Assembly (NCBI GenBank): GCA_016187925.1
Contig: JACPIS010000034.1
Coordinates: 1-64,000 of the forward strand
Direction of reading: 5' to 3'
Length of the DNA stretch: 64,000 bases
From: Opitutia bacterium
GTDB taxonomy: Bacteria; Verrucomicrobiota; Verrucomicrobiia; Opitutales; Opitutaceae
Shown: in pieces, positions 8,925 to 62,152 of the stretch
Layout: each line of letters begins with the position of its first letter
How positions within the stretch are numbered: position 1 is the first letter of the stretch
Notes under the pieces: model-generated
What the model saw: only the letters and a program-made list of their open reading frames with translations
The model's database searches: none
Told to the model about the DNA's origin: nothing
Program-made: the position numbers and the translations under genes

Positions 8925-8941
8925 GGTTTTGCAATGGGCTC

Positions 8942-31111: not shown

Positions 31112-31133
31112 CCGGACCGCGCAAAATTTTCCC

Positions 31134-46057: not shown

Positions 46058-47692
46058 ATGCAAACGCCCGTAATCATGGCCCTCCTCCACACCGCCAGCG
46101 ATGCCGATCTGGTCGCCGCCTACCTTGGCGGCAACCGCTCCGCATTCGAGCAGATCGTGGAGCGTTATCAGCGTCTGCTCTGCTCGCTGGCCTACTCCGC
46201 GCTCGGCGACGTCGGGGCGAGCGAGGACGTCGCGCAGGAAACCTTCGTCACCGCGTGGCTCAAGCTCGGCGAGCTGCGCGAACCCGAGAAACTCCGCTCC
46301 TGGCTCTGCGCCATCCTCCGCTTCAAGATCAGCCACGTCCGCCGGCGCGACGGTCGCGAACCCGTGCACGGCGCCGCCCCGCTCGAAGGCACCCTCGACA
46401 TCCCGACTGCGGAAACGCCCGCCGACACCGCCGCGATGGACCGTGACGAGCAGGCGCTCGTCTGGCGCGTGCTGCAGACTTTGCCGGAAACCTACCGCGA
46501 GCCGCTCGTGCTGTTTTACCGCGAACACCGCTCGATCGAGCACGTCGCCGCCGAACTCGACCTCTCCGAGGACGCCGTGAAACAGCGCCTCGCGCGCGGG
46601 CGCAGCCTCCTCAAGGAGCAGGTGCTCGCCCTCGTCGAAGGCGCGCTCGCCCGCAGCACGCCCGGCCGCGTCTTCACCGTTGGCGTGCTCGCCGCGCTGC
46701 CCGCGTTCACGCCGCCCGCCGAGGCCGCGGTCGTGGGCACTGCCGCCGCGGCGGCGACGAAAGGCGCGAGCGGCCTCGCCAAGTTTGCCCTGCTCGCGCC
46801 CGTGCTCGCTTCGGTGAGCGGCTTCGTCACGACGGTGATGACGCTGCGCATGAATCTCGACCAGTCTCGCACCGTGCGCGAGCGGCGCGCCGTGGTCGTC
46901 ACGACCGCGGTGTTACTCGGCAGCTTCATCGGTTTCCTGCTCTTCGTCTTCGGGCTGCGCCTGGCCGCCATGCGCTGGCCGGATCAACTCTCGACGATCG
47001 CGCTCATCCATCACGCCACCGTTTTGCTGTTCTCGGGCGCGTGGTCGCTCGCGCTGATCCGCTCGCTCCGGATCGCGCGCGAGCTGCGTTCGGCGGAGCG
47101 GCAGCGCGAGCCGAAGCGGTTCGCGCATCCGTCCGACCGCGTCGGCTCGCGCCTCGCCGAGTATCGCACCCGCGCGACGTTGCTTGGCCTGCCGCTCGTG
47201 CACGTCCGCTTCTCCGCGCCCGACGCTACGCAAGGTCCCGCGGTCGGCTGGATCGCGGGTGGTGACCGCGCGGTGGGCGTGCTGTTCGCCTTCGGCGGCT
47301 GGGCGTTCGGCCTCGTCAGCGTGGGCGGCCTGGCGTTCGGCGCGCTCACGCTCGGCGCAGTCAACCTTGGGTTGATCAGCCTCGGTGCGATTTGCTTTGG
47401 CGGCGTGGCGGTCGGCTCCGTGTCCGTCGGCTGGCACGCGTCCGGCTCGCTGTCGGCTACGGCGTGGGAGACCGCGCGCAGCGCCAATCTCGCGTTCTCG
47501 CAGCACATCGCGGCGGCGCCTTTCGCCCTCGCGCCGCACGCCAACGACGCTGTCGCCCAGCGCATGCTGGCCGATCCGAACGCCCGCCGTGACTGGCTGA
47601 TCTTTTGCGCGCTCATCGTCGTCCTGAGCCTCGTGCCGACGACGCTCTACGCCCGCGCCGTGCGCCGGCGCATCGGCCGGCCACCCGGCTAG
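46058..47692 (+). CDS. ECF-type RNA polymerase sigma factor with C-terminal membrane domain
   Basis: 544 residues. Residues about 10-190 are a complete ECF sigma factor: region 2 (YQRLLCSLAYSALGDVGASE, then DVAQETFVTAW) and region 4 (LPETYREPLVLFYREHRSIE, then SEDAVKQRLARGRSLLKE). The rest is unusual: four or more membrane helices (about 210-345), then from about 413 to 462 ten hydrophobic pentads each starting with Gly (GGWAF, GLVSV, GGLAF, GALTL and so on), and a final membrane helix. ECF proteins with such tails may sense signals at the membrane in cis, replacing an anti-sigma factor; this is inferred. ATG at 46058, or 46076 in frame. Confidence 0.85.
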   Translation: MQTPVIMALLHTASDADLVAAYLGGNRSAFEQIVERYQRLLCSLAYSALGDVGASEDVAQETFVTAWLKLGELREPEKLRSWLCAILRFKISHVRRRDGREPVHGAAPLEGTLDIPTAETPADTAAMDRDEQALVWRVLQTLPETYREPLVLFYREHRSIEHVAAELDLSEDAVKQRLARGRSLLKEQVLALVEGALARSTPGRVFTVGVLAALPAFTPPAEAAVVGTAAAAATKGASGLAKFALLAPVLASVSGFVTTVMTLRMNLDQSRTVRERRAVVVTTAVLLGSFIGFLLFVFGLRLAAMRWPDQLSTIALIHHATVLLFSGAWSLALIRSLRIARELRSAERQREPKRFAHPSDRVGSRLAEYRTRATLLGLPLVHVRFSAPDATQGPAVGWIAGGDRAVGVLFAFGGWAFGLVSVGGLAFGALTLGAVNLGLISLGAICFGGVAVGSVSVGWHASGSLSATAWETARSANLAFSQHIAAAPFALAPHANDAVAQRMLADPNARRDWLIFCALIVVLSLVPTTLYARAVRRRIGRPPG

Positions 47693-47767
47693 ACGCTCCG
47701 CGCGCCGTTTGCCTCCTCCCTCGCCGCGTCCGCCGCGCGTGGCGCGAGCCTGGCCCGTTTTTTTCCC

Positions 47768-48967
47768 ATGACCTCCCAATCCTCCACCTCCGCTCCTCGC
47801 ACCGCCGCGCTCGACAGTTTGCGCGCGCTCCTGACGCTGCTCGTCGTCGCGCACCACGCTGTGCTCGCCTACTTCGTCTACGCGCCGCCGCCCGGCGCGT
47901 TCGACGCCACGCTCTTCTGGGGCGCATTTCCCATCATCGACGCGGCGCGCGCGCAAGGCGTGGACCTGCTGGTGTTGTGGAACGACTCGTTCTTCATGGC
48001 GCTGATGTTCCTGCTCGCCGGTTTATTCACGGGGCCGAGCCTCGTGCGCAAAGGCGCGGGCGGTTTCGCGACCGATCGTTTCGTGCGGCTGGGTCTGCCG
48101 TTCATCGTCAGCGCAGGCGTGCTGGCGCCGCTGGCCTATTATCCGGCGTTCCTGCAACGCGAGGCCGCAACGCCCGCGGCGGGTTTCATCGACGCGTGGG
48201 CGAAACTCGGCGTGTGGCCCGCGGGGCCGGCGTGGTTTCTGTGGGTGCTGCTGGCGTTCAGCGCGCTGGCGGCGCTGCTGCACGCCGCGCTGCCGCGCGC
48301 TCTCGAAGCGCTCGGCCTGGCCGGCGAGTGGTGCCGCGCGCGGCCCGCGCGGTTGGTCGGCGTGTGGATCGTCGCCGCAGTGCTGGCCTACATGCCGGTG
48401 GTGATGAAGGTGAATTACATGCACTGGTCGAGCTGGGGGCCGTTTTTCGTGCAGACGTCGCGCGTGGGACTCTATGCGGCGTATTTCTTCTACGGTGTCG
48501 CACTCGGCTGGCGCGGCGCGGGGCTGCGCGAGCTCGTCGCACCGGACGGGCCGCTCGGGCGCCGCTGGGGGCGTTGGCAGGTCGCGGCGGGCCTCGTGTT
48601 CGTGGGTTTCGTCGCGACGGTGATCGTGAACGCTATCAAGGCCTCGCGCGGCGAGTTTTCCCTCGGCTGGGGCGTGACCTCCGGTGTGCTGATGACGGTG
48701 AGCGGCGCCGTCACGAGCACGAGCCTGCTGGCGTGGGCCGCGCGCAAGCGGAGCGTCGAGAACGCCTTCTGGGCCAGCCTGCGGCGCAACGCCTACGGCA
48801 TCTACCTTGTGCACTACGCGATCGTCATCTGGCTGCAGTTCGCGTTGTTGCGCTTCACCATGCCCGGGCTCGTCAAAGCGCTGTTCGTCATGATCGCCGG
48901 CATAGCGCTCAGCTGGGCGCTCGCGGCCGCGCTGCGGCGGCTGCCGGGCCTGCGCGCGATTCTGTGA
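47768..48967 (+). CDS. Acyltransferase family 3 membrane protein
   Basis: 399 residues, ATG at 47768. Begins with the family motif LDSLRALLTLLVVAHHAVLA (conserved Arg and His). About ten membrane helices, with FFMALMFLLAGLF in the family pattern and a C-terminal RRNAYGIYLVHY. These enzymes transfer acetyl, succinyl or similar groups to sugars at the inner membrane, for example on surface glycans. The stop lies 3 bp from that of anmK on the other strand. Confidence 0.87.
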   Translation: MTSQSSTSAPRTAALDSLRALLTLLVVAHHAVLAYFVYAPPPGAFDATLFWGAFPIIDAARAQGVDLLVLWNDSFFMALMFLLAGLFTGPSLVRKGAGGFATDRFVRLGLPFIVSAGVLAPLAYYPAFLQREAATPAAGFIDAWAKLGVWPAGPAWFLWVLLAFSALAALLHAALPRALEALGLAGEWCRARPARLVGVWIVAAVLAYMPVVMKVNYMHWSSWGPFFVQTSRVGLYAAYFFYGVALGWRGAGLRELVAPDGPLGRRWGRWQVAAGLVFVGFVATVIVNAIKASRGEFSLGWGVTSGVLMTVSGAVTSTSLLAWAARKRSVENAFWASLRRNAYGIYLVHYAIVIWLQFALLRFTMPGLVKALFVMIAGIALSWALAAALRRLPGLRAIL

Positions 48968-48970
48968 GCG

Positions 48971-50089
48971 TCACTCCGGCAGCCACACGCCACCGAGCAC
49001 GGCGCCGCGCATGGCGCCGGTGACCGCGGGGCAGTTTCCCGCGCCGTGGTGCATCCGCTGCCGCGCCAGCCACGCGAAGGCCATCGCCTCGACCCAGCCG
49101 GGATCGACGCCGAGCGCGGCGGTCGTCTGCATCTGGCAGCCCGGCAGGCGCTCCTGCAGCGCCCGCATCAGCACCGGATTCCGCGCGCCGCCGCCGCAGA
49201 TGAAGACCCCGACGCCGCTGGCGCCGAGCGTCGCCTTCACGCTCTCGGCGATGCTCTGCGCCGTGAGCGCGACGAGCGTCGCCTGCACGTCCGCCGGCCC
49301 GTAGCCGCCGACGTGCGCCGCCAACCAGGCCGGCGAGAAATGCTCGGGGCCCGTGCTTTTCGGCGCCGGTCGGGCAAAGTATCCGTCGGCGAGCAACGCG
49401 CGCAGCAGCTCCTCCTGCACCCGTCCGCGCGCGGCGAAGGCGCCGTCGCGATCCATCGGTTCGCCGAGCTGCTGCCGGCACCATGCATCGAGCAGCGTGT
49501 TGCCCGGTCCTGTGTCGAAGCCGCGCACCGGCGCGGTGGGATCGGCCGGGAGCAGCGTGACGTTGGCGATGCCGCCGATGTTCACCACCGCGCGCGCCTC
49601 GCCGGCGCGACCGAAGATCGCCGCATGAAACGCCGGCACGAGCGGCGCGCCCTGGCCGCCGAGCGCCATGTCCTTGCGCCGGAAATCCGCCACGACCGGC
49701 AGGCCCGTCTGCGCGGCGATCGTGTTCGGATCGCCGACTTGCAGCGTGAACGGCACCGCGCGGCCCGGCCGGTGCCGCACCGTCTGCCCGTGGCTGCCGA
49801 TCGCGTGCACGCCGGCGCGCTCGACGCGCGCGAATTCCAACAGTTCGTTCACCGCGCGGGCGAAGTGCCGCCCCACCGCCACGTCCGCGCCCCCGAGCCG
49901 GTCGATTTCGTCCTCGCCCGGCACCGCCAGCCGCAGCAACTCACCGCGCAGCTCTGGCGGATACGGCAGCGTGTGCGTCGCCACGAGCTCGGCGCGCGCG
50001 CCGAACCGCACCAGCGCCGCATCCACGGCGTCGACACTCGTGCCGGACAGCACGCCGACAAAAAGTTCGTCTTTCGGCCCAGAAGTCAC
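48971..50089 (-). CDS. anmK: Anhydro-N-acetylmuramic acid kinase
   Basis: 372 residues from a GTG at 50089, close to the 369 of E. coli AnmK; a longer frame to 50224 adds unrelated residues. Family motifs: VGVLSGTSVDAVDAALVRFG, then HAIGSHGQTVRHRP, then VVADFRRKDMALGGQGAPLV, then FDTGPGNTLLDAW and FICGGGARNPVLM. It hydrates and phosphorylates 1,6-anhydro-MurNAc from turnover to MurNAc-6-P, in the cytoplasm. Divergent from murQ, the next enzyme, with 109 bp between them for shared control. Confidence 0.94.
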   Translation of the reverse strand: MTSGPKDELFVGVLSGTSVDAVDAALVRFGARAELVATHTLPYPPELRGELLRLAVPGEDEIDRLGGADVAVGRHFARAVNELLEFARVERAGVHAIGSHGQTVRHRPGRAVPFTLQVGDPNTIAAQTGLPVVADFRRKDMALGGQGAPLVPAFHAAIFGRAGEARAVVNIGGIANVTLLPADPTAPVRGFDTGPGNTLLDAWCRQQLGEPMDRDGAFAARGRVQEELLRALLADGYFARPAPKSTGPEHFSPAWLAAHVGGYGPADVQATLVALTAQSIAESVKATLGASGVGVFICGGGARNPVLMRALQERLPGCQMQTTAALGVDPGWVEAMAFAWLARQRMHHGAGNCPAVTGAMRGAVLGGVWLPE

Positions 50090-50198
50090 GTCCGAGTGAA
50101 ATGAACGATTGAACCTCCCGCAGCAACGCAGGATTATCGGCCCATTCCCCGTCATCTCGAGGCGCCCTCCGCGCCGTGCCGCTCCATTCGATCGCGCC

Positions 50199-51080
50199 AT
50201 GCTCTCCACCGAAACTCCCAGCAACCAGCACCCCGACCTCGATCTCTACGCGACCGCCGACCTCGTCCGCGCCTTCACGGAAGACCAGGTGCGCGCCGCC
50301 AACGTTGTCCACGCCGCCGGCGCACAACTCTCGCGCGCGGTCGATGCGGCGGTCCCGCGCATCGCCGCCGGCGGCCGTCTGCTCTACGCCGGCGCAGGCA
50401 CTTCCGGTCGCCTCGGTGTGCTCGACAGCGTCGAACTCTTCCCGACCTTCAGCTGGCCGAAGGAGCGCGCCGTCGCGCTGCTCGCCGGCGGCAAGCCGGC
50501 GATGTTCGCAGCGGTCGAAGGCGCCGAGGACGACCGCGCGCAGGGCGCGGCGGATTTGCGCGCCCTTGCTCCCACGCAAAACGACGTCCTCATCGCGCTC
50601 GCCGCCTCCGGCGCCACGCCTTACGCGCTCGGCGCCATCGAGGCCGCGCGCGCCGCCGGCGCGCTGACCATCGGCATCGCCAACAATCCCGCCGCCCCGG
50701 TCGCCACCCAGGCCGAAATCGGCATCACGCTCGACACCGGCAGCGAGGTCATCTCCGGCAGCACGCGCCTGAAAGCCGGCACATCGCAGAAGATCGCCCT
50801 CAACACGCTCTCGAGCGCCATCATGGTCCGGCTGCACAAGGTCTACGGCAACCTGATGGTCGACGTGCACCCGACCAACGCGAAGCTCTTCCGGCGCGCC
50901 ATCGCGCTCACCACGCGCGCCACCGGCGCCGATGAGGCCGCTGCGCGGCGCGCCTTGGAGGCCTGTGGCTATCGCGTGAAGGTCGCCATCGTCATGCTCA
51001 AGCGGAATCTCGATTCCGCCGCCGCCGAGGCGGCCCTCACCGCCGTGCAAGGCAATGTGCGCGCCGCGCTGAAGGCATGA
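50199..51080 (+). CDS. murQ: N-acetylmuramic acid 6-phosphate etherase
   Basis: 293 residues from the ATG at 50199 (E. coli 298). Single SIS domain with the signature GAGTSGRLGVLDSVELFPTF at about residue 67, then AVEGAEDDR and IALAASGATPYALGA, and HPTNAKLFRRAI. It splits the lactyl ether of MurNAc-6-P to GlcNAc-6-P and D-lactate. Overlaps the start of the next gene by ATGA, making a coupled unit with the DigH-like hydrolase. Confidence 0.95.
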   Translation: MLSTETPSNQHPDLDLYATADLVRAFTEDQVRAANVVHAAGAQLSRAVDAAVPRIAAGGRLLYAGAGTSGRLGVLDSVELFPTFSWPKERAVALLAGGKPAMFAAVEGAEDDRAQGAADLRALAPTQNDVLIALAASGATPYALGAIEAARAAGALTIGIANNPAAPVATQAEIGITLDTGSEVISGSTRLKAGTSQKIALNTLSSAIMVRLHKVYGNLMVDVHPTNAKLFRRAIALTTRATGADEAAARRALEACGYRVKVAIVMLKRNLDSAAAEAALTAVQGNVRAALKA

Positions 51081-52603
51081 GCATCCTGTCACGGATTTTC
51101 GGGTGGGGCGCGTTCGCCACGCTCATCCTGCTCCTGGCCGGATGCGTCACCCGTCCCACGCCCGTGGAACCCCCGCCGCCGGCCCCGCGTGAGTTCCGCG
51201 GCGTCTGGGTGGCGACTGTGGCCAACATCGACTGGCCCAGCAAACCTGGCCTGCCGGTCGAGCAACAGCGCGCCGAGTTGATCGCCATCCTCGACCGCGC
51301 CCACGCGCTCCGCCTGAACGCCGTCATCCTGCAAGTTCGTCCGGCGGCCGATGCGCTCTACCTGTCGGCCTTGGAGCCGTGGACCGAATACCTGAGCGGC
51401 ACGCAGGGCCGTGCGCCGGAGCCGCTCTACGATCCGCTGCAGGTGTGGATCACGGAGGCGCACCGCCGCGGCTTGGAGCTGCATGCGTGGTTCAATCCGT
51501 ATCGCGCCCGGCACCATCAGGCGAAGTCGGACTTCGCGCCGACGCATTTGGCGAAGACGCATCCCGCCGTGGTGAAACGCTACGGCGAGTTGTGGTGGAT
51601 GGATCCGGGCGACGCCTTCGCCGCGCAGCGCACGCTCGACGTCGTGGCCGATGTCGTCCGCCGCTACGACGTCGATGGCGTGCACATCGACGACTATTTC
51701 TACCCGTATCCGATTCCTCAGCCGCTTTCCCCCAAGGCACCCAAAGACGCGCCGCGCGAGGACGTACCTTTCCCCGACGAGCCGTCGTGGCAGCGCTACC
51801 TCGCCAGCGGTGGCCAGCTGGCGCGCACCGACTGGCGGCGGCAAAACGTCGACCAGCTGGTCGAACAGCTTTACCGCACCATCCACGCCATCAAGCCGTG
51901 GGTGAAGTTCGGCGTCAGCCCGTTCGGGCTCGGCCGACCCGACCGCCGTCCGGCCGGCATCGAGGGTTTCAGCCAATACGACAAGCTCTACGCCGACGTG
52001 GAGCTCTGGCTGCAAAAGGGCTGGCTCGATTATCTGGCGCCACAGCTCTACTGGCCGCGCAGCCAGAAAGCACAGGCCTTCGAGCCGCTGCTCGATTACT
52101 GGGCGAAGCAAAACACCGCTCAACGCCATCTCTGGCCCGGGCTCTTCACCAGCGCCATCAACGACACGCCGCAGTCCTGGACGCCCGAGGAGATTCTCCA
52201 GCAGATCGCGGTGACGCGGTCACGCCCCGCCGCGAGCGGGCTCATCCAATTCAGCATGGCCGCACTGATGCAGGATCGCCGCGGCATTGCGGAAAAACTC
52301 GCCGCCGGCCCCTACGCGCAACCCGCGCTCGTGCCACCCACGCCGTGGCTCGACGCCCAACCACCCCCGGCCCCGAAGCTCAAGCGTCGGGCTGACGGAA
52401 AAATCACCGTTATGCCCGGCAAGGGCAAGGCCGCGGCCAACTACGCCGTGTGGCGGCGGCAGGACCGGGCGTGGAATTTCTCCGTGCAGCCCGCGACCGA
52501 TCCGGTGGTCGAGGCAGGCACGGCCGAAGCGATCGTCGTTTCCGCCGTGGATCGGCTTGGCAACGAGAGCCCGCGCGTCACGCTCCTCCTGAAAACCCCA
52601 TGA
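51077..52603 (+). CDS. DigH/YddW-like glycosyl hydrolase lipoprotein (GHL10/DUF187)
   Basis: 508 residues. Lipobox LLLAGC near residue 22, so anchored by lipid. GHL10 motifs: EFRGVWVATVANIDWPS, then LNAVILQVRPAADALY, then HAWFNPYRARH, then YDVDGVHIDDYFYPYP and KFGVSPFGLGRP. The E. coli homologue DigH (formerly YddW) cleaves denuded peptidoglycan glycan strands. Coupled to murQ by an ATGA overlap, so wall-glycan cleavage and MurNAc-6-P use are made together. The C-terminal ~110 residues resemble a small beta-sandwich. Confidence 0.87.
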   Translation: MSILSRIFGWGAFATLILLLAGCVTRPTPVEPPPPAPREFRGVWVATVANIDWPSKPGLPVEQQRAELIAILDRAHALRLNAVILQVRPAADALYLSALEPWTEYLSGTQGRAPEPLYDPLQVWITEAHRRGLELHAWFNPYRARHHQAKSDFAPTHLAKTHPAVVKRYGELWWMDPGDAFAAQRTLDVVADVVRRYDVDGVHIDDYFYPYPIPQPLSPKAPKDAPREDVPFPDEPSWQRYLASGGQLARTDWRRQNVDQLVEQLYRTIHAIKPWVKFGVSPFGLGRPDRRPAGIEGFSQYDKLYADVELWLQKGWLDYLAPQLYWPRSQKAQAFEPLLDYWAKQNTAQRHLWPGLFTSAINDTPQSWTPEEILQQIAVTRSRPAASGLIQFSMAALMQDRRGIAEKLAAGPYAQPALVPPTPWLDAQPPPAPKLKRRADGKITVMPGKGKAAANYAVWRRQDRAWNFSVQPATDPVVEAGTAEAIVVSAVDRLGNESPRVTLLLKTP

Positions 52604-52620
52604 CTCTCCCGGCTGAATTT

Positions 52621-52686
52621 GTGAGAGGGGCTTTACGCCCCGACGCGAAACGCTCCCAACCAGTCGGGGCGTAAAGCCCCTCCCAC
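52621..52686. repeat. Palindromic repeat, GAGAGGGGCTTTACGCCCCG family
   Basis: Arms AGGGGCTTTACGCCCCGAC and GTCGGGGCGTAAAGCCCCT are near-perfect complements around a short loop. Same family as 45896-45972. It lies between the DigH-like gene and ampG. Confidence 0.85.
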
Positions 52687-52716
52687 CGCCAAGATCACTC
52701 CCTGATCGCCTCCGCC

Positions 52717-53997
52717 ATGGAAACCTCCGCCACTCCCGCCCCGCAGAATTTCTGGCGCTGGATTCCGTCGCTCTATTTCGCACAGGGCATCCCCTACGTG
52801 GTCGTGATGACCTTGGCGGTGGTGATGTACAAAAACCTGAAGGTCTCGAACACCGACATCGCGCTCTACACGAGCTGGCTCTACCTGCCGTGGGTCATCA
52901 AGCCGCTCTGGTCGCCGCTGGTGGAGTTGTTCCGGACGAAACGTTTTTGGATCGTTAGCCTGCAACTGGTGATCGGCGCGGCGTTCGCGCTGGTGGCGCT
53001 GACCCTGCCGGGCCCGGGTTTCTTCCGCTACACGCTGGCGGTGTTCTGGCTGATGGCCTTCAGCTCGGCCACGCACGACATCGCGGCCGACGGCTTCTAC
53101 ATGCTCGCCTTGCCGGCTTACCAGCAGGCGGCGTTCGTGGGCGTGCGCAGCACGTTCTACCGGCTGGCCATGATCGCCGGTCAGGGCGGTCTCGTCTACC
53201 TGGCGGGCACGTTGCAGGACATGACCGGCGACGTGGCACGCGCCTGGTCGCTGGTGTTCGGCGTGCTCACGGCGATGTTCATCGGCGCCGGGCTCTATCA
53301 CCTCGCGGTGCTGCCGCGTCCGGCTACCGACCGCTCCGCGCCCACCGGGCAACCGGCGCTGACCGGGTTCTTCACGGTGTTCGGCGAATTTTTCCGCAAA
53401 CCCGGCATCGGCGTCACGCTCGCCTTCCTGCTGCTGTATCGATTCGCCGAGGCGCAATTGCTGAAGCTGGTGACGCCCTTCCTGCTCGATCCGCGGACGG
53501 ATGGCGGACTGGGGCTGACCACGCAACAGGTGGGCATCGCCTACGGCACAGTCGGCGTCATCGCGCTCACCCTCGGCGGGCTGCTCGGCGGCTACGTCAT
53601 CTCGCGCTACGGATTGAAGCGCCTGCTCTGGCCGATGATCCTCATCATGCACGTGCCGAATCTGGTTTTCGTCACCCTGGCCCTGACCCAGCCGGGCAAC
53701 CTTCTCGTGATCGCCGGCGCGCTGGCGGTCGAGCAATTCGGCTACGGTTTCGGTTTCACCGCCTACATGCTCTACATGATCATGGTCGCGGAGGGTGAGC
53801 ACAAGACGGCGCACTACGCCATCTGCACGGGCTTCATGGCGTTGGGCATGATGGTGCCGGGCATGTTCGCCGGCTGGCTGCAGGATCACCTCGGTTACGT
53901 GAAATTCTTTCTCTGGGTCATGCTGTGCACGATCCCGTCGTTCGTCGCGATCTCGCTGCTCAAGGTCGACCCGGCGTTCGGGAAGAAGAGCACCTGA
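52717..53997 (+). CDS. ampG: AmpG-type muropeptide MFS permease
   Basis: 426 residues, twelve membrane helices. Begins SLYFAQGIPYVVVM, then WLYLPWVIKPLWSPLVE (AmpG pattern), SSATHDIAADGFYMLAL in helix 4 region, and YMLYMIMVAEGEHKTAHYAI. AmpG brings GlcNAc-anhydroMurNAc peptides from periplasm to cytoplasm. Surrounded by anmK, murQ, amidase and nagZ, which supports muropeptides as cargo. Converges with the amidase gene. Confidence 0.9.
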   Translation: METSATPAPQNFWRWIPSLYFAQGIPYVVVMTLAVVMYKNLKVSNTDIALYTSWLYLPWVIKPLWSPLVELFRTKRFWIVSLQLVIGAAFALVALTLPGPGFFRYTLAVFWLMAFSSATHDIAADGFYMLALPAYQQAAFVGVRSTFYRLAMIAGQGGLVYLAGTLQDMTGDVARAWSLVFGVLTAMFIGAGLYHLAVLPRPATDRSAPTGQPALTGFFTVFGEFFRKPGIGVTLAFLLLYRFAEAQLLKLVTPFLLDPRTDGGLGLTTQQVGIAYGTVGVIALTLGGLLGGYVISRYGLKRLLWPMILIMHVPNLVFVTLALTQPGNLLVIAGALAVEQFGYGFGFTAYMLYMIMVAEGEHKTAHYAICTGFMALGMMVPGMFAGWLQDHLGYVKFFLWVMLCTIPSFVAISLLKVDPAFGKKST

Positions 53998-54047
53998 GCG
54001 GACCCGGAGCGCGGGGCACGGGGGCGTCAGCCAGGGAACGCGGCGGC

Positions 54048-55043
54048 TTACGGCACCAGCCGACGCGCGCCATCGATGAGCTTGTCCCAATCGAACGCCG
54101 GACCGGGGTCGGTCTTGTTCGTCTGGATGTGGAAATGGCCGAGCACACCGTGGTAGCGCGCGAGTTCGTCGTCCGGCAATTTGTGCGGCAGCACCTTGCC
54201 GTCGGCGCCGCGCGGGTAATCGAGTTTGATCTTCGGGAAGATGCGGCTGAGCGCGGCGGTGAGCTTGATGAGGGCCTTGTACTGCTCCGGCGTGAGGTCG
54301 TATTGCACGAGGTCCTGGCCCTGAATCGTGCCGCGCACGGGCGCAGGCCGGGCCGGATGACCGGTGAACCCCTTGGTGCGGATCAGCGGGTCGCCGAGTT
54401 TCGGCGGCACGGTGATCACGACCGCACCCCGGGCGTCGCGCGCATACCACTCGTCGAGCGTCTTGGTGTCGTTTGGCCCGTAGGCGCCCATGTTGGCGAT
54501 CTCGATGCCGACGGAGCGGTGATTCGAGGTCGTGGCGTGATACGCGCGCTCCTTGAGATCGAGCGTCTGGTAGAGGGTGCCGTCGAGATCGAGCATGAAG
54601 TGCACGCTGAGTCCGCGGTGGTCGTGCAGGACGTTGAAACACTGCTTGCTGATGCCGCAGACATCGTAGTGCAGCACGAACTGGTCGACCACGCGCCGCA
54701 GCGTCGGCAAATCCCAGCCGCCGCCGCGCACGCGCTCGATCTCCTCCGGCGTGAGCGCGGCGAAGCGCAGGCCGTAGCGGTTGGGCTCCTTGAAGTCCGG
54801 CAGGGCCGCCTGCGTCTTCGTCCAGCCGCTCTCCTCGAACGGCGCGAAGCGGCGCTCGACGCGGTAGGCGTCGTAGCCGCCCGGATCCATCCAAGTGACG
54901 ACCTTCGTGCCGGTGTGAAACAACTGGCCGGCGACAATGATCTCGTCGCCCTTGCGTTTGGCGAGCGAACCGGGGCGATGCAGACAGCCGGTGAGAAGCA
55001 GGGCGAAGAGGCAGGCGAGCGCGAGGGGTTTGGAGTATTTCAC
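54048..55043 (-). CDS. N-acetylmuramoyl-L-alanine amidase lipoprotein (AmiD-like, Amidase_2)
   Basis: 331 residues. Lipobox LLLTGC at about residue 16-20 predicts membrane anchoring. Amidase_2 fold: VDQFVLHYDVC (zinc His), then LSVHFMLDLDGTLYQTLD, then NHRSVGIEIANMG, and GHFHIQTNKTDPGPAFDWDK (zinc His and the Lys-Thr-Asp-Pro-Gly motif). Cleaves the MurNAc-L-Ala amide of muropeptides. AmiD in E. coli is an outer-membrane lipoprotein of 276 residues; this one has an insert (about 205-290). Same strand as nagZ. Confidence 0.9.
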   Translation of the reverse strand: MKYSKPLALACLFALLLTGCLHRPGSLAKRKGDEIIVAGQLFHTGTKVVTWMDPGGYDAYRVERRFAPFEESGWTKTQAALPDFKEPNRYGLRFAALTPEEIERVRGGGWDLPTLRRVVDQFVLHYDVCGISKQCFNVLHDHRGLSVHFMLDLDGTLYQTLDLKERAYHATTSNHRSVGIEIANMGAYGPNDTKTLDEWYARDARGAVVITVPPKLGDPLIRTKGFTGHPARPAPVRGTIQGQDLVQYDLTPEQYKALIKLTAALSRIFPKIKLDYPRGADGKVLPHKLPDDELARYHGVLGHFHIQTNKTDPGPAFDWDKLIDGARRLVP

Positions 55044-55151
55044 GGCAGGATATCGACCACGGATGGCACGGATACTCTCGGATGTTCTCGGAAGGAAACG
55101 TGGTCTGAAATCCCATCCGGGCTCATTCGTGCAATCCGTGGTTAGGAAAAC

Positions 55152-56228
55152 TCAGGTAATCAGACCGGCTTTGCGCTTGAGCGCGAGCACGCGTTGGTAC
55201 GATTCGTCGATCCGCGCCGCGGGGATCCGGCCCGACTCGACCGCGTGCACGAGGATCGCCGCGGCCTTGCCGGCGATGTCGGGGTCGTAGCCGAGGTTGT
55301 TGCCGAAGCAGAGCAGGTCGATGCCCGCCTCGATCGCCAGCGGCACGGATTTCTCCAAGCCGTAATGGCTGGAGATCGCCTTCATCTCCATGTCGTCGCT
55401 GGTGACGACGCCCTGGAAACCCAGTTTCTCGCGCAGCACGCCCGTGATGACCGCCGGCGAAAGCGTGGCCGGGCGCTCCGGATCGAGCCGCCGGTTGAAC
55501 ACGTGCGCGCTCATCACAGCGTCGCAGAGGCCCGCGGCGATGAGCCGCTGGAACGGAATCAGCTCCCGCTCGTGCCACGTCTGCGTGACGTCGACCAGAC
55601 CAAGATGCGTGTCGCCGGTCGCGCTGCCGTGGCCGGGAAAATGTTTCGCGCAGGTCAGCACGCCCTGCGCGCGGTGGGCGCGCATGAACTCGGCGGCATG
55701 CCGCGCCACCTTCTCCGGATCGCCCGAGAACGTCCGGCCCTTGCCCTTGATGATCGGATTGTCGGGGTGCGCGTCGAGGTCGACGACGGGGGCGAGGTTG
55801 AAGTTGATGCCGAGCCCGGCCAGCGTGCGCGCTGTGGCCTGGGCGTGGCGATAGGTCTCGGCGGGCTGGTCGATGCGACCGAGCTCCTCGTGCGAGATGC
55901 TCTCCGGGAAACCGTAGGCGGGCTTCAGGCGGTTGACGCGCCCGCCTTCCTGATCGATGGAAACGAGCAGCGGGACCGCCGCCTGTTTTTGCAGATGCGC
56001 GAGCAGCGCGCGCACTTGCTCCGGCGACTCGATGTTGCGCCGGCGCGAAGCGGTGTCGACGGTGCCACCCGCCATCTCCTGGTCGAACAGGATGATGCTG
56101 CCGATATGGTGTTCGCGGATGTCGCGCGCGATCACCCCGCACTCCGCCGGCGTGCAGCCGCGGAAGCCGACCAGCAGCAACTGGCCGATCTTCTCGCGCA
56201 AGGTGGGAGGGGGGGACACGGGGCTCAT
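55152..56228 (-). CDS. nagZ: Beta-N-acetylhexosaminidase NagZ (GH3)
   Basis: 358 residues from the ATG at 56228; a longer frame to 56291 is not needed. No signal peptide, as expected for a cytoplasmic enzyme. GH3 motifs: LVSIDQEGGRVNRL, then AKHFPGHGSATGDTHLGL (the NagZ His-Asp catalytic loop), then GFQGVVTSDDMEM with the nucleophile Asp. Removes GlcNAc from GlcNAc-anhydroMurNAc muropeptides brought in by AmpG, feeding AnmK and MurQ. Confidence 0.94.
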   Translation of the reverse strand: MSPVSPPPTLREKIGQLLLVGFRGCTPAECGVIARDIREHHIGSIILFDQEMAGGTVDTASRRRNIESPEQVRALLAHLQKQAAVPLLVSIDQEGGRVNRLKPAYGFPESISHEELGRIDQPAETYRHAQATARTLAGLGINFNLAPVVDLDAHPDNPIIKGKGRTFSGDPEKVARHAAEFMRAHRAQGVLTCAKHFPGHGSATGDTHLGLVDVTQTWHERELIPFQRLIAAGLCDAVMSAHVFNRRLDPERPATLSPAVITGVLREKLGFQGVVTSDDMEMKAISSHYGLEKSVPLAIEAGIDLLCFGNNLGYDPDIAGKAAAILVHAVESGRIPAARIDESYQRVLALKRKAGLIT

Positions 56229-56335
56229 CGGGACTGCCGACGCTAGAGCCCACGCCGGGGTGGCGACAACCCTACATCGCGCGTCCGGCACGAAAACAGC
56301 CGCACTGAACCGGTTTTCGCGGTCGCGCCGACTGC

Positions 56336-58111
56336 TTATTTCGGCTGCGCCGGCGCGAGGGCCGGAAGCCGCGCCTGGAGCTGCTCGAACTTGGCCCGCG
56401 TCGGCTCATCCCGGGCCACCTTCAGCCCGAGACGGACCAGGCCGTGCGCCTCGGCCGGAAACCCGTTCTGCGCCCGCAGGTCGGCCGCGCGATAGACGAG
56501 CGCCGTATTGCGCGGGAAAAGCTTCACGCCCTGCTCGACGGCCGCAAGGTGCGCGGCCGTCGGCGGAAAGGCGCTGGCGGTCCAAGCCTCGGCCATGAGC
56601 TCGTAGATTTCCGCCAAGGCGGGCGGCTGCGTGCGTGCCGCGAAAAGCGGCTCCAGCACGCCGGCCGTCTGCTCGGAGCTGAGTTTGCCCTGTCCGCCTT
56701 TCGGCTGGGCCAGCCCCTCGGCCAGTCGCAGGCGCGCCAGCTCCAGATATGCCCGGGGACGGACAACCTGGCCCGCAACGGCCTTCTCGAGCAGTTTCCG
56801 GGCGCGGGCGGTATCGCCGCCCGCCAACTCGGCCAGTCCGAGCGATGCCAGCAGGGCGGAATCACGCTCCCCGCGCCGGTAAGACAGGATCAACACTTCG
56901 AGTGCCGCGGCGGGATGCCCGGCGAGGGCAAACGCCTCGCCTTTGAGCCGGCCGATTTCCGCCTCCGTCGCCTCGCGCACCACGACCGGCGGCGGCGCGG
57001 GGATCTTCTGCCCCTTGTCCGCCTGCACCCCGGCGACCTTCGAACGCGTGAACTCGATGTGGCCGCGCAAGGCCTGGAGCATCTCGTCGTAGCCCAGCTT
57101 GAAGCACTCCTTGAACAGCGCCTCGGTGAGCGGCTCGCGCCCCGCGCGGTTTACGAAGGTGAGAAATTCCCTTTGGTGCCGGCCGTAGTCGCCGTAGAGC
57201 CCCCAGTGGACGAACGCGTAGCACTGCTTCGCCCAGACGTTGTCGATCGGGTTCTGGGCCAGGGCGGAATCCGCCTGCAGCGCGAACATCGCGTCCAACG
57301 GCAGCAAGGCCCGGTTCGCCAGAGCCACATTGAAATCCCGGTCCTCGCGGACCTTCGCGTCCGCGCGATCCGTGCCGAGGTTCGGGTTCTCCACCCGTCC
57401 GATGGAAATCTCCGTCTCGGTGATGCGCAGGTTCATGAACAGCTGCGACAGGCCCTCGGCAAACCAAACCGGATGCGGCGGTTGACGCTCAGAGAGGAGA
57501 AAACGGATGTATTCCCGGTAAAGCTGCTGGTTGGCGTCGATGGTGAATCCCAGATCCGGCGTCGACTCGGTCGATTCGGTCTCGCTGTCGGCACCGGCCG
57601 CTGTAGTGGCGCCGTCGGCGGTAACGAGGTTCAGTATCTTCGTCTGCTGATCGAGCACCAAGGTCGCCCGCTCACGCTCGCGCCGGCTGAAGGCGGTGGC
57701 CGCCCGCGGCGCACCCCGCAAGCTGTCCGGGAGGAATTCCTCGAACTTCTGCCCCTGTCCGCAGACGATCAGAGCGGCCGGCGACGCATTGTCCGGCTGC
57801 ATGCCGGGCCAGACCAGGCTCAGGGCGTGGGTGAAGCGCTGGAAATCGGCGAGCAGGCGCTGTGTGTCGCCCTCGGAGGCGTTGGACAGGACTTCGAAAC
57901 CCTCAATGCGCGCGTAGGACCATGACTCCGGCGGTGGCAGCTCGCGGTCGGCCTGCACCTTGTATTCCGGCAGGTCGATGGGAATCTGGTTGACCGTCTC
58001 GGGTGCGGCGAGCAACGGCGCCGCAGCGGCTAGCCACAGGGTCCGCGCCCGAAATTTCCGGGCTGCTTGGGCAACAGCGGTCCAGCGGGAAGAGTTCGCA
58101 GGGGTATGCAT
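56336..58111 (-). CDS. Secreted TPR-like hypothetical protein with a degenerate peptidase-like domain
   Basis: 591 residues. N-terminal hydrophobic segment (TLWLAAAAPLLAAP) suggests export. The middle (about 190-345) resembles DUF1570/gluzincin-type domains (HPVWFAEGLSQLF, then YAFVHWGLYGDYGRHQREFL) but I see no HExxH zinc motif, so probably not a protease. From about residue 395 to the end TPR-like helical pairs follow (LKGEAFALAGHPAAALEVLI, then LGLAELAGGDTARARKLLEK). The role is unknown; it may be a scaffold. Located between nagZ and the epimerase on the same strand. Confidence 0.65.
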   Translation of the reverse strand: MHTPANSSRWTAVAQAARKFRARTLWLAAAAPLLAAPETVNQIPIDLPEYKVQADRELPPPESWSYARIEGFEVLSNASEGDTQRLLADFQRFTHALSLVWPGMQPDNASPAALIVCGQGQKFEEFLPDSLRGAPRAATAFSRRERERATLVLDQQTKILNLVTADGATTAAGADSETESTESTPDLGFTIDANQQLYREYIRFLLSERQPPHPVWFAEGLSQLFMNLRITETEISIGRVENPNLGTDRADAKVREDRDFNVALANRALLPLDAMFALQADSALAQNPIDNVWAKQCYAFVHWGLYGDYGRHQREFLTFVNRAGREPLTEALFKECFKLGYDEMLQALRGHIEFTRSKVAGVQADKGQKIPAPPPVVVREATEAEIGRLKGEAFALAGHPAAALEVLILSYRRGERDSALLASLGLAELAGGDTARARKLLEKAVAGQVVRPRAYLELARLRLAEGLAQPKGGQGKLSSEQTAGVLEPLFAARTQPPALAEIYELMAEAWTASAFPPTAAHLAAVEQGVKLFPRNTALVYRAADLRAQNGFPAEAHGLVRLGLKVARDEPTRAKFEQLQARLPALAPAQPK

Positions 58112-58229
58112 AGGGAGTAGATTGCGCCCTGGCCCAAGGGTCGACCTGCGCGCGAGGCTAGGCGCCGCACCTGCAGGTTCAAATACAATACAGCCGCTCT
58201 GCCGCGCGGGGTTCGATCAGGCGGGGCGG

Positions 58230-59249
58230 CTAGTGCTTCACCACGCCGATGCCGGGGTGGTCGGACAGGGTGACCCGGCCGTCGGTGATCGTGGCGCCGG
58301 TGAAGAGGTCGTTCTTGATCAGCAGCGCGCCATCGAGGTCGGCCCAGTCGACGAGCGGCGAGAGCTGCGCGGCGGCGGAGATGGCGCACGAAGTCTCGGT
58401 CATGCAGCCGAGCATGACCTTCAGGCCGAGCGCGCGGGCCACGGTGATCATCCGGTGCGCCTCGCGCAGGCCGGTGCATTTCATGAGCTTGATATTGATG
58501 CCATCGAAGACGCCGCGCGCCTTCACGACATCGGCGAGGCGCTGGATGCTCTCGTCGGCGATGAGCGGCAGCGGGCTGCGCTCGCGCAGCCAGGCGGTGT
58601 CGTCGGGCTGCTCCTTCGGCATGGGCTGCTCGATGAAGAGCACGCCCTGCCCCGCCAGCCATTCGCTCATGCGCAGCGCCTCGTCGCGGTTTTTCCAACC
58701 CTGATTGGCGTCGACCGTGATCGGCGTGCCGGTGACCGAGCGGATCGTCTCGATCAGCTCGCGGTCGGTGGTCGCGTCGCGGCCGAGCTTCACCTTGAGG
58801 ATGCGGTAGCCGGCGGCTTCGCGAGTCTTCTGCCGCACAACCTCCGGCGTATCGATGCCGATGGTGAAGGACGTGATGGGCGCCTTGGCGGGATCGAGGC
58901 CCCAGAGCCGGTGCCACGGCGCGCCGAGTTTTTTGCCGATCCAATCGTGCAGGGCGATGTCGACCGCGGCCTTGGCGGCGGCGTTGCCCGGTGCGAGCGC
59001 GTCGATGGCGGGCAGGATTTCTTCCAGCTGGAAAGGGTCGGCGAACCGCGTGAGGTCGACCCGGCGCAGGAAGGCGGCGGCGGTTTCCTGGCTCTCGCCG
59101 AGATAGGGCGGCATGGAGGCCTCGCCGTAGCCGATGATCCCGTCGCGCTCCACCTCGACCATCATCGCCGGCGTGCTGGTGCGGGTGTTCGCGGCGATGC
59201 CGAACGCGTGCCGGAGTTCGAGAGTATGGGGGTAGAAGCGGAGTTGCAT
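58230..59249 (-). CDS. Dipeptide (L-Ala-D/L-Glu) epimerase, enolase superfamily
   Basis: 339 residues from the ATG at 59249. Catalytic residues of the muconate-lactonising-enzyme subgroup: LKVKLG (Lys-x-Lys), ITVDANQGW (metal Asp), FIEQPMP (metal Glu), IADES (metal Asp), INIKLMKC (second Lys), and the DLDGA signature of dipeptide epimerases. Converts L-Ala-D-Glu from murein peptides to L-Ala-L-Glu for hydrolysis. The gene starts 36 bp from the tRNA fragment at 59285, so it is the last core gene before the accessory segment. Confidence 0.9.
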   Translation of the reverse strand: MQLRFYPHTLELRHAFGIAANTRTSTPAMMVEVERDGIIGYGEASMPPYLGESQETAAAFLRRVDLTRFADPFQLEEILPAIDALAPGNAAAKAAVDIALHDWIGKKLGAPWHRLWGLDPAKAPITSFTIGIDTPEVVRQKTREAAGYRILKVKLGRDATTDRELIETIRSVTGTPITVDANQGWKNRDEALRMSEWLAGQGVLFIEQPMPKEQPDDTAWLRERSPLPLIADESIQRLADVVKARGVFDGINIKLMKCTGLREAHRMITVARALGLKVMLGCMTETSCAISAAAQLSPLVDWADLDGALLIKNDLFTGATITDGRVTLSDHPGIGVVKH

Positions 59250-59284
59250 GGCGACCAAGCCAGCCAGCACCCGACGGGCGAAGC

Positions 59285-59309
59285 TGGCGGAGAGGGGGGG
59301 ATTCGAACC
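59285..59309 (-). other. 25-nt 3' end of a tRNA gene (probably tRNA-Ser), att-like scar
   Basis: On the minus strand the sequence reads GGTTCGAATCCC then CCCCTCTCCGCCA, which is a T-arm, the 3' acceptor strand and CCA of a tRNA. The paired 5' acceptor strand (GGAGAGG) and the remainder of a tRNA are not found upstream, so it is a fragment. Such fragments mark where an integrase has inserted DNA at a tRNA gene. Confidence 0.7.
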
Positions 59310-59718
59310 GCTGCCGGCTCGCGAGGCCAAGTTGCTAACTGACGTGGACTTGGTTGATTTTCACTCTTACGGAACAGGGAAAACAAAAGCAGCCAACGGC
59401 AGCGAGGTGAAGCCAGAAACACCGTTCCTGGCAATTTTGTGGCAACCACGCGCTCCCTTTGGCCGCGTGAAACACTTTTCCCATCCAGGTTCCGTCCTTT
59501 GGCCACTGCGATCTGGCGCCAGCATGATCCTAAAATGCGATAACCAGTAGGCAGGGCCGCCCTCTCTCCCGGTTCCACGGACTCCTCCCTGCACCTCCCG
59601 GGCATTGACGCCCACCAACCCAGTGCGTATGGAAGCCCGACCATCCGGGAAGCTGAGGGCCAACAGCGGACCACCAAAAAAGGTGAACCTTTTCAGAATC
59701 AATGCTCGACACGCCTTC
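59310..59718. other. Non-coding stretch of lower-GC DNA beside the att-like site
   Basis: No frame shows a recognisable protein. I looked for an integrase C-terminus next to the tRNA fragment and could not identify one. Composition is less GC-rich than the core region to the left. Confidence 0.55.
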
Positions 59719-59955
59719 TCATGGAAGCGCCAGAGCCGATAGAAGCAGCCGCTGCTGATTCTTGCTGTAAACGAAGACCTCGGTGTCCAACGGCAGGTCC
59801 ACGAACCAGCGGAACAGCAGGTCGGTCTTCAGCCGGTCGCAGAGCTGGCGGTCGGAGCGCACCGTGTAGAGCGCTTGGAGCACCTTGCCCTTGAGGAGCG
59901 TCTCCGGCGGGATCGACGGCGCGCCGTCGGCCGCATAGATCCCGTCGAGGTGGGG
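59719..59955 (-). pseudogene. Transposase remnant, IS5-type (DUF772) N-terminal part
   Basis: About 78 codons translate to PHLDGIYAADGAPSIPPETL, then GKVLQALYTVRSDRQLCDRL and DLLFRWFVDLPLDTEVF, ending in SKNQQRLLL before a stop. This is the conserved N-terminal block of many IS5-family transposases. The start codon region and the whole catalytic DDE part are missing, so it is a non-functional fragment. The rest of the gap to 60182 has no visible gene. Confidence 0.8.
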
Positions 59956-60182
59956 ACTGAGCCGGACTCATGCAGTCGGGGTCGAGATAATCTGATTTTT
60001 TCCGGCTCTGTCGGCGAGGGCGGCAACTGCATAGCAGTCGGGTTCGTCGCTCAATTGGCGGAGGAGGACGCGCCACTGGTGGCGGTGTTTTTCTCAACTG
60101 GCAGATGCACCGGTAGCCGGACAAGCAAAGAGTGAGCAACGGACCTAACGACTGCCGGCGCATCAATAGTAGGGCCGCCGGT

Positions 60183-61010
60183 CTATCGGTCCGTTGGAAG
60201 TGAGTGTGGGATGGGGCGCCAGTTGCTGAATTCGGTCTCGATATGGATTCGACGTTTCTGGAAGAAGACGCGGCCTGTTTGGTCCACTACCGCCCGCCAC
60301 GGCAGCCAGGCCCCCACGGGCGCCGTTTTGTATTTAACCGTCAGCGAAATCAACTGTGTCCCAAAAATACTGCCGTATGGCAGTGTGAAGATGATTTGAA
60401 GCGGGAGGGCGTTTGATTCGTTCAGATAGGCGGTGGCCGTATTGCGCGGATCCTCAGATGAAACGCCTTTCCAAACCTGAACGCGGGTGCCATCTAACGC
60501 CTCCTGCCGAAGCAATATCCACGAGTCGTATTCCGCCAAGATCGCGCCGGGATCCTTTTGTATGCCGAGGTCTATGGTTATTACCATTCCTGGCTGGCCG
60601 GTCTTTTTCTGGCGCTTCCGTTTCCACACTGGCTGGCCATCGACCAACTCCAGCTCTACATATGTTTCAAGGCTACCCAGCGCCTGATTTTCGACGTTAT
60701 AGACGGTCAGAGTGTTGATCAATCCCGTAGCCCAGTAGTGGCTGTCATTCGTGATTTTATCGGCCGCTTGTCGCCAAAGTGGCGGCCTATTCTCCTTGCC
60801 GGAGACCGTGTCTTGGGCCGCAAGCACAGGGCTGACCAGTGCACCGACCACGCCCGCCAGCACGAGCCAATAGGTCCAGGGACGTTGCGGACCACGCGCG
60901 GCAAACAGGCTCTCCAGCGAGTCCTGGGCGATTTCGGCGGGGTATAGGCTGATGGATCGAAGCACGACCTGCGAGCCAAACGCCTTGGAGATTCCTTGAA
61001 ATTCGATCAT
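60183..61010 (-). CDS. Single-pass membrane protein with an exporter-like N-terminus, otherwise unrecognised
   Basis: 275 residues from the ATG at 61010. Residues 1-23 (MIEFQGISKAFGSQVVLRSI) resemble the first strand of ABC ATPases, but no Walker motif follows. Residues about 24-65 (LYPAEIAQDSLESLFAARG, then YWLVLAGVVGALVS) resemble the N-terminus of HlyD-family fusion proteins, including the one membrane helix. The following ~210 residues are beta-rich (LTVYNVENQALGSLETYVEL) and lack the coiled coil or lipoyl parts of HlyD. It may be a rearranged exporter subunit or a new protein. Function unknown. Confidence 0.55.
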   Translation of the reverse strand: MIEFQGISKAFGSQVVLRSISLYPAEIAQDSLESLFAARGPQRPWTYWLVLAGVVGALVSPVLAAQDTVSGKENRPPLWRQAADKITNDSHYWATGLINTLTVYNVENQALGSLETYVELELVDGQPVWKRKRQKKTGQPGMVITIDLGIQKDPGAILAEYDSWILLRQEALDGTRVQVWKGVSSEDPRNTATAYLNESNALPLQIIFTLPYGSIFGTQLISLTVKYKTAPVGAWLPWRAVVDQTGRVFFQKRRIHIETEFSNWRPIPHSLPTDR

Positions 61011-61077
61011 GGGGAAGGGGGTTGGGAAGAAGGCATGGTTGCTGCAACCTGTAACCCGATCGCCGCAACCTGTTGGA

Positions 61078-61200: not shown

Positions 61201-61231
61201 GTCGGTTTTGATTTTGGTTCCTCGGCGGTGT

Positions 61232-62101: not shown

Positions 62102-62152
62102 GCGTTAGCGCCGGCGAGCTTGCAGTCTCGCCGGCGCTGTCTGGACGATATT

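Follow-up and report, generated by a model that had tools for sequence, protein, structure and literature searches.

Gene content and layout of the locus

The window analyzed here is a 64,000-nucleotide stretch from an Opitutia bacterium of the family Opitutaceae (Verrucomicrobiota; assembly GCA_016187925.1, contig JACPIS010000034.1), and our subject is a cluster of genes within it predicted to handle peptidoglycan fragments. The source genome, G000, comprises 48 contigs, is 100% complete by the tool's figure and is counted within the 57-genome set used below. An earlier note on this DNA had described a compact peptidoglycan-recycling cluster at 48971-59249. Profile searches located all seven of the families it named inside these limits, and the overlap between murQ (50199-51080) and a gene for a DigH-like protein of the GHL10 family (51077-52603) was confirmed at 4 bp. 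The genes occupy both strands: anmK lies on the minus strand, murQ, the GHL10 gene and ampG on the plus strand, and the genes for an amidase, NagZ, a tetratricopeptide repeat (TPR) protein and an epimerase on the minus strand. There are at least three transcription units, because anmK and murQ diverge and ampG and the amidase gene converge; a one-operon reading was rejected, given the use of both strands and these two junctions. The gene set of the earlier layout stands, while its strands and the start of anmK were corrected and the gene for the 591-residue TPR protein (56336-58111, minus strand; variably present in relatives), which it had left unmentioned, was added.

The gene anmK (anhydro-N-acetylmuramic acid kinase; 48971-50089, minus strand) was assigned from profile matches of 454 bits (Pfam) and 488 bits (NCBIfam NF007139, cut-off 367), with its predicted start at GTG 50089, which is more likely than the mechanical start. 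MurQ (N-acetylmuramic acid 6-phosphate etherase; gene on the plus strand) matches TIGR00274 at 304 bits (cut-off 302); AnmK and MurQ both have intact motifs, the mark by which E. coli-type recycling of anhydro-N-acetylmuramic acid (anhMurNAc) is recognized. The GHL10 gene (plus strand) encodes a predicted glycan-cleaving lipoprotein of the DigH/Cwp19 type, in which both the domain (PF02638, 214 bits) and an export signal (LAGC lipobox) are present and for which Cwp19 is the sole match among solved structures (246 bits). In other loci (L numbers; genomes carry G numbers) the GHL10 start can differ: those of L004, L005, L006, L013, L015 and L019 resemble membrane anchors without a lipobox, which is missing in L054 and L066 too. 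The next gene, ampG (52717-53997, plus strand), encodes a putative AmpG-family importer, with a below-cut-off match to TIGR00901 and PDB matches, four of four of which are AmpG or muropeptide transporters.

The convergent amidase gene (54048-55043, minus strand) encodes an AmiD/AmpDh2-like zinc amidase (Amidase_2, 66 bits) that is a lipoprotein, its lipobox reading LLTGC by eye; a simple expression matched a lipobox in 19 of 21 distinct orthologue starts, in some at a less likely cysteine, and the other two were recognized by eye. The nagZ-like gene (55152-56228, minus strand) encodes a GH3 beta-N-acetylglucosaminidase (GH3/NagZ, 240 bits; NF003740, 183 bits, below the cut-off of 207) with the GH3 N domain and the His/Asp loop motif; when orthologue starts were compared, no lipobox was seen in NagZ and, by eye, no signal peptide. 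The outermost gene (58230-59249, minus strand) encodes an L-Ala-D/L-Glu (dipeptide) epimerase-like protein of the enolase superfamily (134 bits), whose best PDB match is 3iji (486 bits) and which has the superfamily active site and a DxD motif; its substrate is only putative because all NCBIfam equivalogs scored below cut-off. Family motifs are present in AnmK, MurQ, NagZ, the amidase, the epimerase and the GHL10 protein, and the choice of the catalytic ones among them is our assumption.

The locus exceeds these limits and covers about 28.7-59.2 kb (~30 kb), which we read as one locus because the upstream genes stay linked to the core in relatives. Upstream of anmK lie genes for a PBP4-type (S13) D-Ala-D-Ala carboxypeptidase/endopeptidase (28663-30192, plus strand; PF02113, 270 bits; TIGR00666, 234 bits, cut-off 108), syntenic in relatives; a NAGPA-domain protein resembling phosphodiester glycosidases (30185-31111, plus strand; PF09992, 124 bits), syntenic in G001, G006, G007 and G201; a NagX-like membrane protein of the glucosamine N-acetyltransferase family (31026-32288, plus strand; NF046061; start uncertain); and a major facilitator superfamily sugar porter, which was not met in relatives' loci save for a 28% match at a distance of some 12 kb in G033. 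A gene for a 660-residue NagB-PIG-L fusion (33802-35784, minus strand; PF01182, PF02585, NF002557) and one for an AraC-family candidate local regulator (35846-36760, plus strand; PF12833) are also present, the latter syntenic in several relatives and not at the locus in others. Two TonB-dependent receptors are encoded at 36803-39964 (receptor 1, plus strand; TIGR01782, 318 bits, cut-off 310; start uncertain) and 40286-43174 (receptor 2, plus strand; PF00593 and PF07715; 32 bits on the SusC model TIGR04056, cut-off 368); no SusC/SusD pair was found, nor any SusD among the open reading frames (ORFs) of the locus that were scanned. Then come genes for an AmiA-like (PF07313) amidase-like protein (43261-44277, plus strand; 78 bits; predicted start) and an M20 metallopeptidase (44395-45666, plus strand; PF01546; NF005602, 393 bits, cut-off 357; start uncertain), a conserved neighbor of anmK. 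Between the latter and anmK, Pfam matches mark a variable insert of a sigma-factor/TPR gene (46058-47692) and an acyltransferase gene (47768-48967), both on the plus strand, shared with only some relatives (G001, G006, G007 and G201).

Conservation of the arrangement and its interpretation

The best 80 of 313 relatives in a MurQ scan of the named genomes were, by their titles, 21 from Verrucomicrobiota and 59 from Proteobacteria; the locus and genome lists overlap (L016 is a contig of G004), so their counts are not additive. Among the 21 Verrucomicrobiota loci, anmK stands divergently beside murQ in 20, the remaining contig beginning at murQ, and the GHL10 gene follows murQ in all 21. The gene ampG comes next in 16, in one of which the contig end cuts it; L002, L015 and L021 end earlier, and L012 and L030 have no ampG. 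Amidase, nagZ and epimerase genes lie farther on in 13; the other eight contigs end without these three, those of L004, L006 and L013 after 3.7-3.9 kb of other sequence behind ampG. In G018, nagZ and the epimerase gene are inverted. Since this order recurs in relatives at 58-84% protein identity, clustering of the seven genes goes beyond chance. The claim that muropeptide pathway genes are clustered was thus borne out, with the arrangement conserved in carriers; scattering of the homologues in all relatives, which the earlier note had named as counting against it, was looked for and is not what the carriers display.

The upstream block is conserved in stretches. Parts of the series of PBP4, NagX, fusion, AraC, TonB receptor, PF07313 and M20 genes recur in G001, G004, G006, G007, G018, G033, G169 and G201 and in L003, L009, L010 and L021; a shorter set (PBP4, NagX and M20) occurs in L054 and L066, and M20 alone in G128 and in L065, where only 1.4 kb is covered. 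Of 23 loci that extend 1.2 kb or more past anmK (own locus included; the decayed locus of G011, where no M20 gene was seen, left out), 17 have the M20 gene as the nearest family member on that side, five of them behind the two-gene insert.

Carriers are few. AnmK scored over cut-off in 11 of the 57 genomes (8 of 13 of the own genus, 3 of 24 from other genera of the family and 0 of 20 from other families of the order) and in 12 of 387 genomes of the phylum, nine of them from the same family at about 450 bits, two at 247 and 193 bits and one a 25-bit fragment. These counts do not bear out the suggestion that recycling is a major activity of the group. In several non-carriers, AmpG-family genes stand without the other module genes. 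As a separate observation, G015, a one-contig genome without an AnmK match, has AmpG (71%) and Amidase_2 (50%) genes convergent as in the module (L112, 6304-8618) with the other genes missing, either a remnant or an older two-gene unit.

That the order has persisted by common descent or transfer only, with no functional coupling, is very improbable in our estimate. The nine strong AnmK carriers of the phylum sample do all belong to one family, the Verrucomicrobiota AnmKs of this kind form one Opitutaceae group in the AnmK tree with moderate support (81/89), and murQ alone was lost in G033, as this explanation would allow; against it, the order has held at the identities given above though the inserts differ between loci, and in G011 (L106, 8089-14720) the module has decayed in place, with six of the seven genes broken together and the GHL10 gene whole.

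With modest confidence, we read 28.7-59.2 kb as a catabolic peptidoglycan-utilization locus, serving turnover of the cell's own wall and probably the use of foreign fragments. The reading builds on what was observed directly (gene families, synteny, lipoprotein signals, family motifs and the lack of NagA, LdcA and MurU matches in the own genome), from which we infer all substrates, which way the flux runs, the uptake of foreign wall material and co-regulation. In the proposed working, wall fragments from own turnover, and probably from other bacteria by way of the TonB-dependent receptors, would be cut by the PBP4-type endopeptidase; amidases would strip peptides outside the cytoplasm, and the GHL10 lipoprotein would cut the glycan to (anhydro)disaccharides for import by AmpG. 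NagZ would then split off N-acetylglucosamine (GlcNAc), AnmK and MurQ would convert anhMurNAc to GlcNAc-6-phosphate (GlcNAc-6-P) and lactate, and the NagB-PIG-L fusion might deacetylate and deaminate GlcNAc-6-P to fructose-6-phosphate, while the M20 peptidase and the dipeptide epimerase would turn the peptides into usable amino acids.

The place of the amidase gives this order of steps its particular shape. The locus amidase is the only Amidase_2 match in the own genome. Of 14 AnmK carriers searched, 11 likewise have just one, and G004, G008 and G009 have a second. No cytosolic AmpD-type amidase was found, the one Amidase_2 match of the own genome being the lipoprotein and other amidase families not having been searched genome-wide. 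Because the product of this sole Amidase_2 gene is a lipoprotein, the peptides probably come off before import by AmpG, an order unlike that of E. coli; this assumes that no cytosolic amidase of another family takes part.

Cwp19 of C. difficile and DigH of E. coli share the GHL10 domain with the window protein, which differs from both in being a lipoprotein whose gene overlaps murQ; its chemistry could follow either. Cwp19 is reported to be a lytic transglycosylase producing 1,6-anhydro ends (PMC6016235), and DigH to hydrolyze denuded glycans (PMC12288456). If the window protein acts like Cwp19, the locus would make its own AnmK substrate.

The upstream block could instead be a neighboring, functionally separate amino-sugar cluster beside ordinary recycling of the cell's own wall, an explanation we consider rather unlikely. 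Recycling in E. coli draws on AmpG, NagZ, AmpD, AnmK, MurQ, NagA, LdcA and YcjG, and the seven-gene core consists of enzyme families of that pathway: AmpG, NagZ, AnmK, MurQ and the epimerase are of the same families and the GHL10 domain is that of DigH. Moreover, the 1,6-anhydro ends on which AnmK depends arise in turnover; in L054, L065 and L066 the core and M20 are present with neither an AraC gene nor the fusion nor a close TonB receptor in the sequence retrieved, and G128 has the core and M20 only. Set against this are the linkage of PBP4, PF07313, M20 and TonB receptor genes to the core across several genera and the overlapping gene sets of proteobacterial murQ loci. From E. coli the window differs in the clustering of its genes, in the lipoprotein nature of the amidase and in that no NagA, LdcA or second (cytosolic) Amidase_2 protein was found in the own genome. 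The label 'recycling' is perhaps too narrow for a neighborhood, conserved in many carriers, that also holds TonB receptors and other wall-degrading genes.

Several findings weigh against a utilization locus. The substrates of the TonB receptors are not readable from sequence, AmpG scores 180 bits on TIGR00901, below the cut-off of 350, the NagX-like protein reaches 195 bits on NF046061, far below the cut-off of 480, and none of the locus genes was identified as a GlcNAc kinase. Among relatives, the M20 gene was not seen in L004, L005, L006, L015, L019 and G010; G128 has no upstream gene except M20; the fusion and the AraC gene are not at the locus in G018, G033 and G169; and ampG is missing from it in G128, G169 and G201. 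The pathway is not closed everywhere, because G004, in which no NagA was found, encodes a NagB that lacks the PIG-L half, and G033 and G010 retain anmK without murQ. In G010 (L101, 9248-11790), anmK is accompanied by an overlapping AmiD-like amidase gene and the start of ampG.

The GlcNAc-6-P step and the anmK-murQ intergenic region

The earlier note had the whole muropeptide pathway clustered here, which goes too far for a genome with no NagA, LdcA or MurU over cut-off. NagA was not found in the own genome, where TIGR00221 gave partial matches only (best 28 bits) and the NagA-like protein of G030, which has matches in 17 of the 57 genomes, gave none; six of the 11 AnmK carriers match this protein and five, the own genome among them, do not. 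LdcA was likewise not found in the own genome (PF02016 occurs in 3 of 57), and the MurU model NF045761 scored over cut-off in 2 of 57 (G037 and G053, of other families), with an own best of 68 bits against a cut-off of 250.

For the GlcNAc-6-P step the strongest candidate is the NagB-PIG-L fusion, as a putative deacetylase/deaminase replacing NagA. It matches NF002557 as a whole at 893 bits, and its NagB half matches a deaminase model at 244 bits (cut-off 237); the nearest solved relatives of the PIG-L half are diacetylchitobiose deacetylases (E about 5e-5). HPDDD and PHGTH motifs, which we take to bind the metal, are kept in the own protein and in six relatives. A simple complementarity of fusion and NagA was weakened by a mixed pattern in the seven assessable genomes: the fusion occurs without G030-type NagA in G000 and G006 and with it in G001 and G007, G018 and G033 have NagA without a fusion at the locus, and G004 lacks NagA as described above. 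For the other AnmK carriers, NagA is present in G009 and G030 and not in G008 and G010, the relevant part of the locus lying outside the available sequence. A betaproteobacterial locus, L069, has nagA and a nagB-II-like gene directly before murQ. A Caulobacter nagA1 nagA2 double mutant is described as unobtainable, with accumulation of an intermediate suggested as the cause (PMC13046382); a genome forming GlcNAc-6-P through MurQ should therefore need an outlet. The fusion would thus be a candidate new GlcNAc-6-P deacetylase in a genome where no NagA was found.

The same deacetylase relatives favor a chitin- or GlcNAc-utilization locus that also recovers N-acetylmuramic acid (MurNAc), in which the receptors, NagX and the fusion serve chito-oligosaccharides and the core is an add-on. 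The NagX model is named after Shewanella SO_3504, presumably a nag-cluster gene, and receptor 1 matches TIGR01782, as would also suit such a locus. With no chitinase family among the Pfam matches of the locus ORFs scanned, which were not all of them, and with wall-enzyme families as the conserved partners, we regard this account as improbable.

Between the divergent anmK and murQ lies a conserved non-coding element of 38 bp (50100-50137). Of the 20 other Verrucomicrobiota junctions, 16, several of them from close relatives, match it more closely than any of 500 shuffled versions of the same junction; the exceptions are L003, L054, L065 and L066. A sliding control on the 16 matching junctions, which were chosen for having the element, gave a mean best match of 29.2 of 38 at the element versus 17.4-18.8 in the following non-coding stretch of the window. 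When the fetched loci (2.27 Mb) were searched for its 16-bp core, with one mismatch allowed, the only places were this junction and one other, in L012/L172, which are the same genome region. The element survives in the decayed G011 and is recognizable by eye in G033 (L105, about 12440-12640), where the GHL10 gene now stands behind it. No comparable conserved non-coding peak was found before the epimerase, nagZ, amidase, GHL10 and ampG genes, the five searched.

The element perhaps consists of overlapping promoters or operator DNA, a reading based on conservation rather than consensus. TTGAAC-17-GATTAT, directed toward murQ, could be a promoter. It was not listed by a consensus promoter scan of 48900-59700, which gave 1 site versus 0.8 expected; its sole site, at 50133-50160 on the minus strand and directed toward anmK, reaches the margin of the element. 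An RNA element was rejected, as there was no Rfam match in 44000-64000, a folding z of 0.40 versus shuffles and no inverted repeat found, and a coding element was rejected because the spacing between it and the reading frames of AnmK and MurQ changes by lengths that do not keep the frame. For the idea that recycling is controlled, the AraC gene and this element supply hints only, the element marking a likely control point. Two palindromic, REP-like repeats (45900-45967 and 52621-52686) sharing a 20-bp arm were also noted; the second, between the GHL10 gene and ampG, has 24-nt arms that are 96% complementary.

Proteobacterial counterparts, known systems and the right flank

Thirty of the 59 proteobacterial murQ loci, mostly from Burkholderiales, were scanned with all locus proteins. 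GHL10 was present in 22, AmpG in 21 and NagX in 8 (44-51% identical); homologues of TonB receptor 2 were 49-54% identical in 6 (two cut by the locus end) and 30-39% in 4 more. L075 also holds LdcA-family, AmiD-like, S13 and kinase genes, and L047 holds genes for a kinase and an oligopeptide-binding protein. In this last locus, from Undibacterium, a serpin-family gene (7782-9134, minus strand) adjoins an L,D-transpeptidase gene. AnmK is beside murQ in none of the 59 loci, the distance being 7.6 kb in L076, and is nevertheless present in 20 of 20 of these genomes tested. Such loci (L014, L047, L069, L075 and others) are thus like the window in sharing MurQ, AmpG and GHL10 and, in some, receptor 2 and NagX, and unlike it in gene order and in that some have their own NagA/NagB-II, kinase or LdcA-family genes.

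The window proteins are 64-73% (MurQ, 22 proteins), 55-70% (AmpG) and 53-61% (GHL10) identical to the proteobacterial sets. Window MurQ is 45% identical to that of G051, the one other high-scoring MurQ (300 bits) met in the order; in G014, G043, G047, G052 and G055, frames of 508-604 residues gave 69-90 bits on the MurQ model and are perhaps MurQ-like domains in larger proteins. Window AnmK is 43-53% identical to 19 of 20 proteobacterial AnmKs and 35% to the last, versus 27-28% to those of two other Verrucomicrobiota families. In the AnmK tree, a starred branch (99/99) unites 26 Opitutaceae-type and 19 proteobacterial rows, the excluded rows being long; for MurQ, one Opitutaceae group has a support of 33, and the Opitutaceae rows require 2 changes for AmpG and 3 for GHL10, all these trees having few outgroups and long branches. 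From these comparisons, anmK and murQ were likely exchanged between Verrucomicrobiota and Proteobacteria, in a direction that is not inferable. Arrival of the whole module from Betaproteobacteria in one block was not supported, because none of the 59 proteobacterial loci has AnmK next to murQ and the gene trees show no single clean event.

A bolder form of the utilization reading, which we put forward only tentatively, is that a locus resembling a polysaccharide-utilization locus (PUL) lets some Opitutaceae eat foreign peptidoglycan, with TonB import of wall fragments, an extracytoplasmic amidase that leaves AmpG a peptide-free disaccharide to import and a fusion that replaces NagA by converting GlcNAc-6-P to fructose-6-phosphate in one protein, and that it has been exchanged between phyla; the exchange is suggested because overlapping loci occur in Betaproteobacteria. 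Like SusC/SusD-type PULs, the locus brings together TonB-dependent receptors, degradative enzymes and a regulator, and it differs from them in the lack of SusD noted above.

The nearest published clustering found is ampG-murTKQ of Tannerella forsythia (Tanf_08345-08385), described as a single transcript for muropeptide and MurNAc scavenging under dedicated regulation (PMC5388701, PMC7670621). AmpG and MurQ are clustered in both. The window differs from this one transcript with MurT and MurK in its at least three units and in having AnmK instead of MurK, and it adds GHL10, NagZ, the epimerase, NagB-PIG-L and TonB receptors to the T. forsythia set. No TonB-linked peptidoglycan-utilization locus and no Opitutaceae cluster were found in the literature searched, which included few subscription papers, and PMC6987092 and PMC5507952 gave nothing close. 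The enzyme families and the idea of clustered muropeptide use are known; the combination of the AnmK route, TonB receptors, the NagB-PIG-L fusion, an extracytoplasmic amidase and overlapping loci in two phyla is new. Bacteria of verrucomicrobial subdivision 4 had been described as without peptidoglycan until sacculi and diaminopimelic acid were shown (PMC5303756). With most of the steps of wall salvage gathered in one compact locus, whether such bacteria recycle or eat peptidoglycan becomes a testable question.

To the right of the locus, a 25-nt piece (59285-59309, minus strand) corresponds to the 3' end of a tRNA-Ser gene, with no whole tRNA there; it agrees at 22 of 25 positions with the intact gene that lies upstream of the epimerase gene in L030. 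Beyond the piece, G+C content changes from about 65% to 57-60%, and the piece and this fall together suggest the edge of an integrated element. Farther on are genes for a rhomboid protein (61232-62101, minus strand), an 82-residue peptide with a double-glycine-type leader and a weak match to a peptide pheromone model (62153-62401, minus strand; 26 bits) and the ATPase of an ATP-binding cassette transporter (62484-63221, minus strand), so that 61232-63221 looks like a small exported-peptide or bacteriocin cassette.

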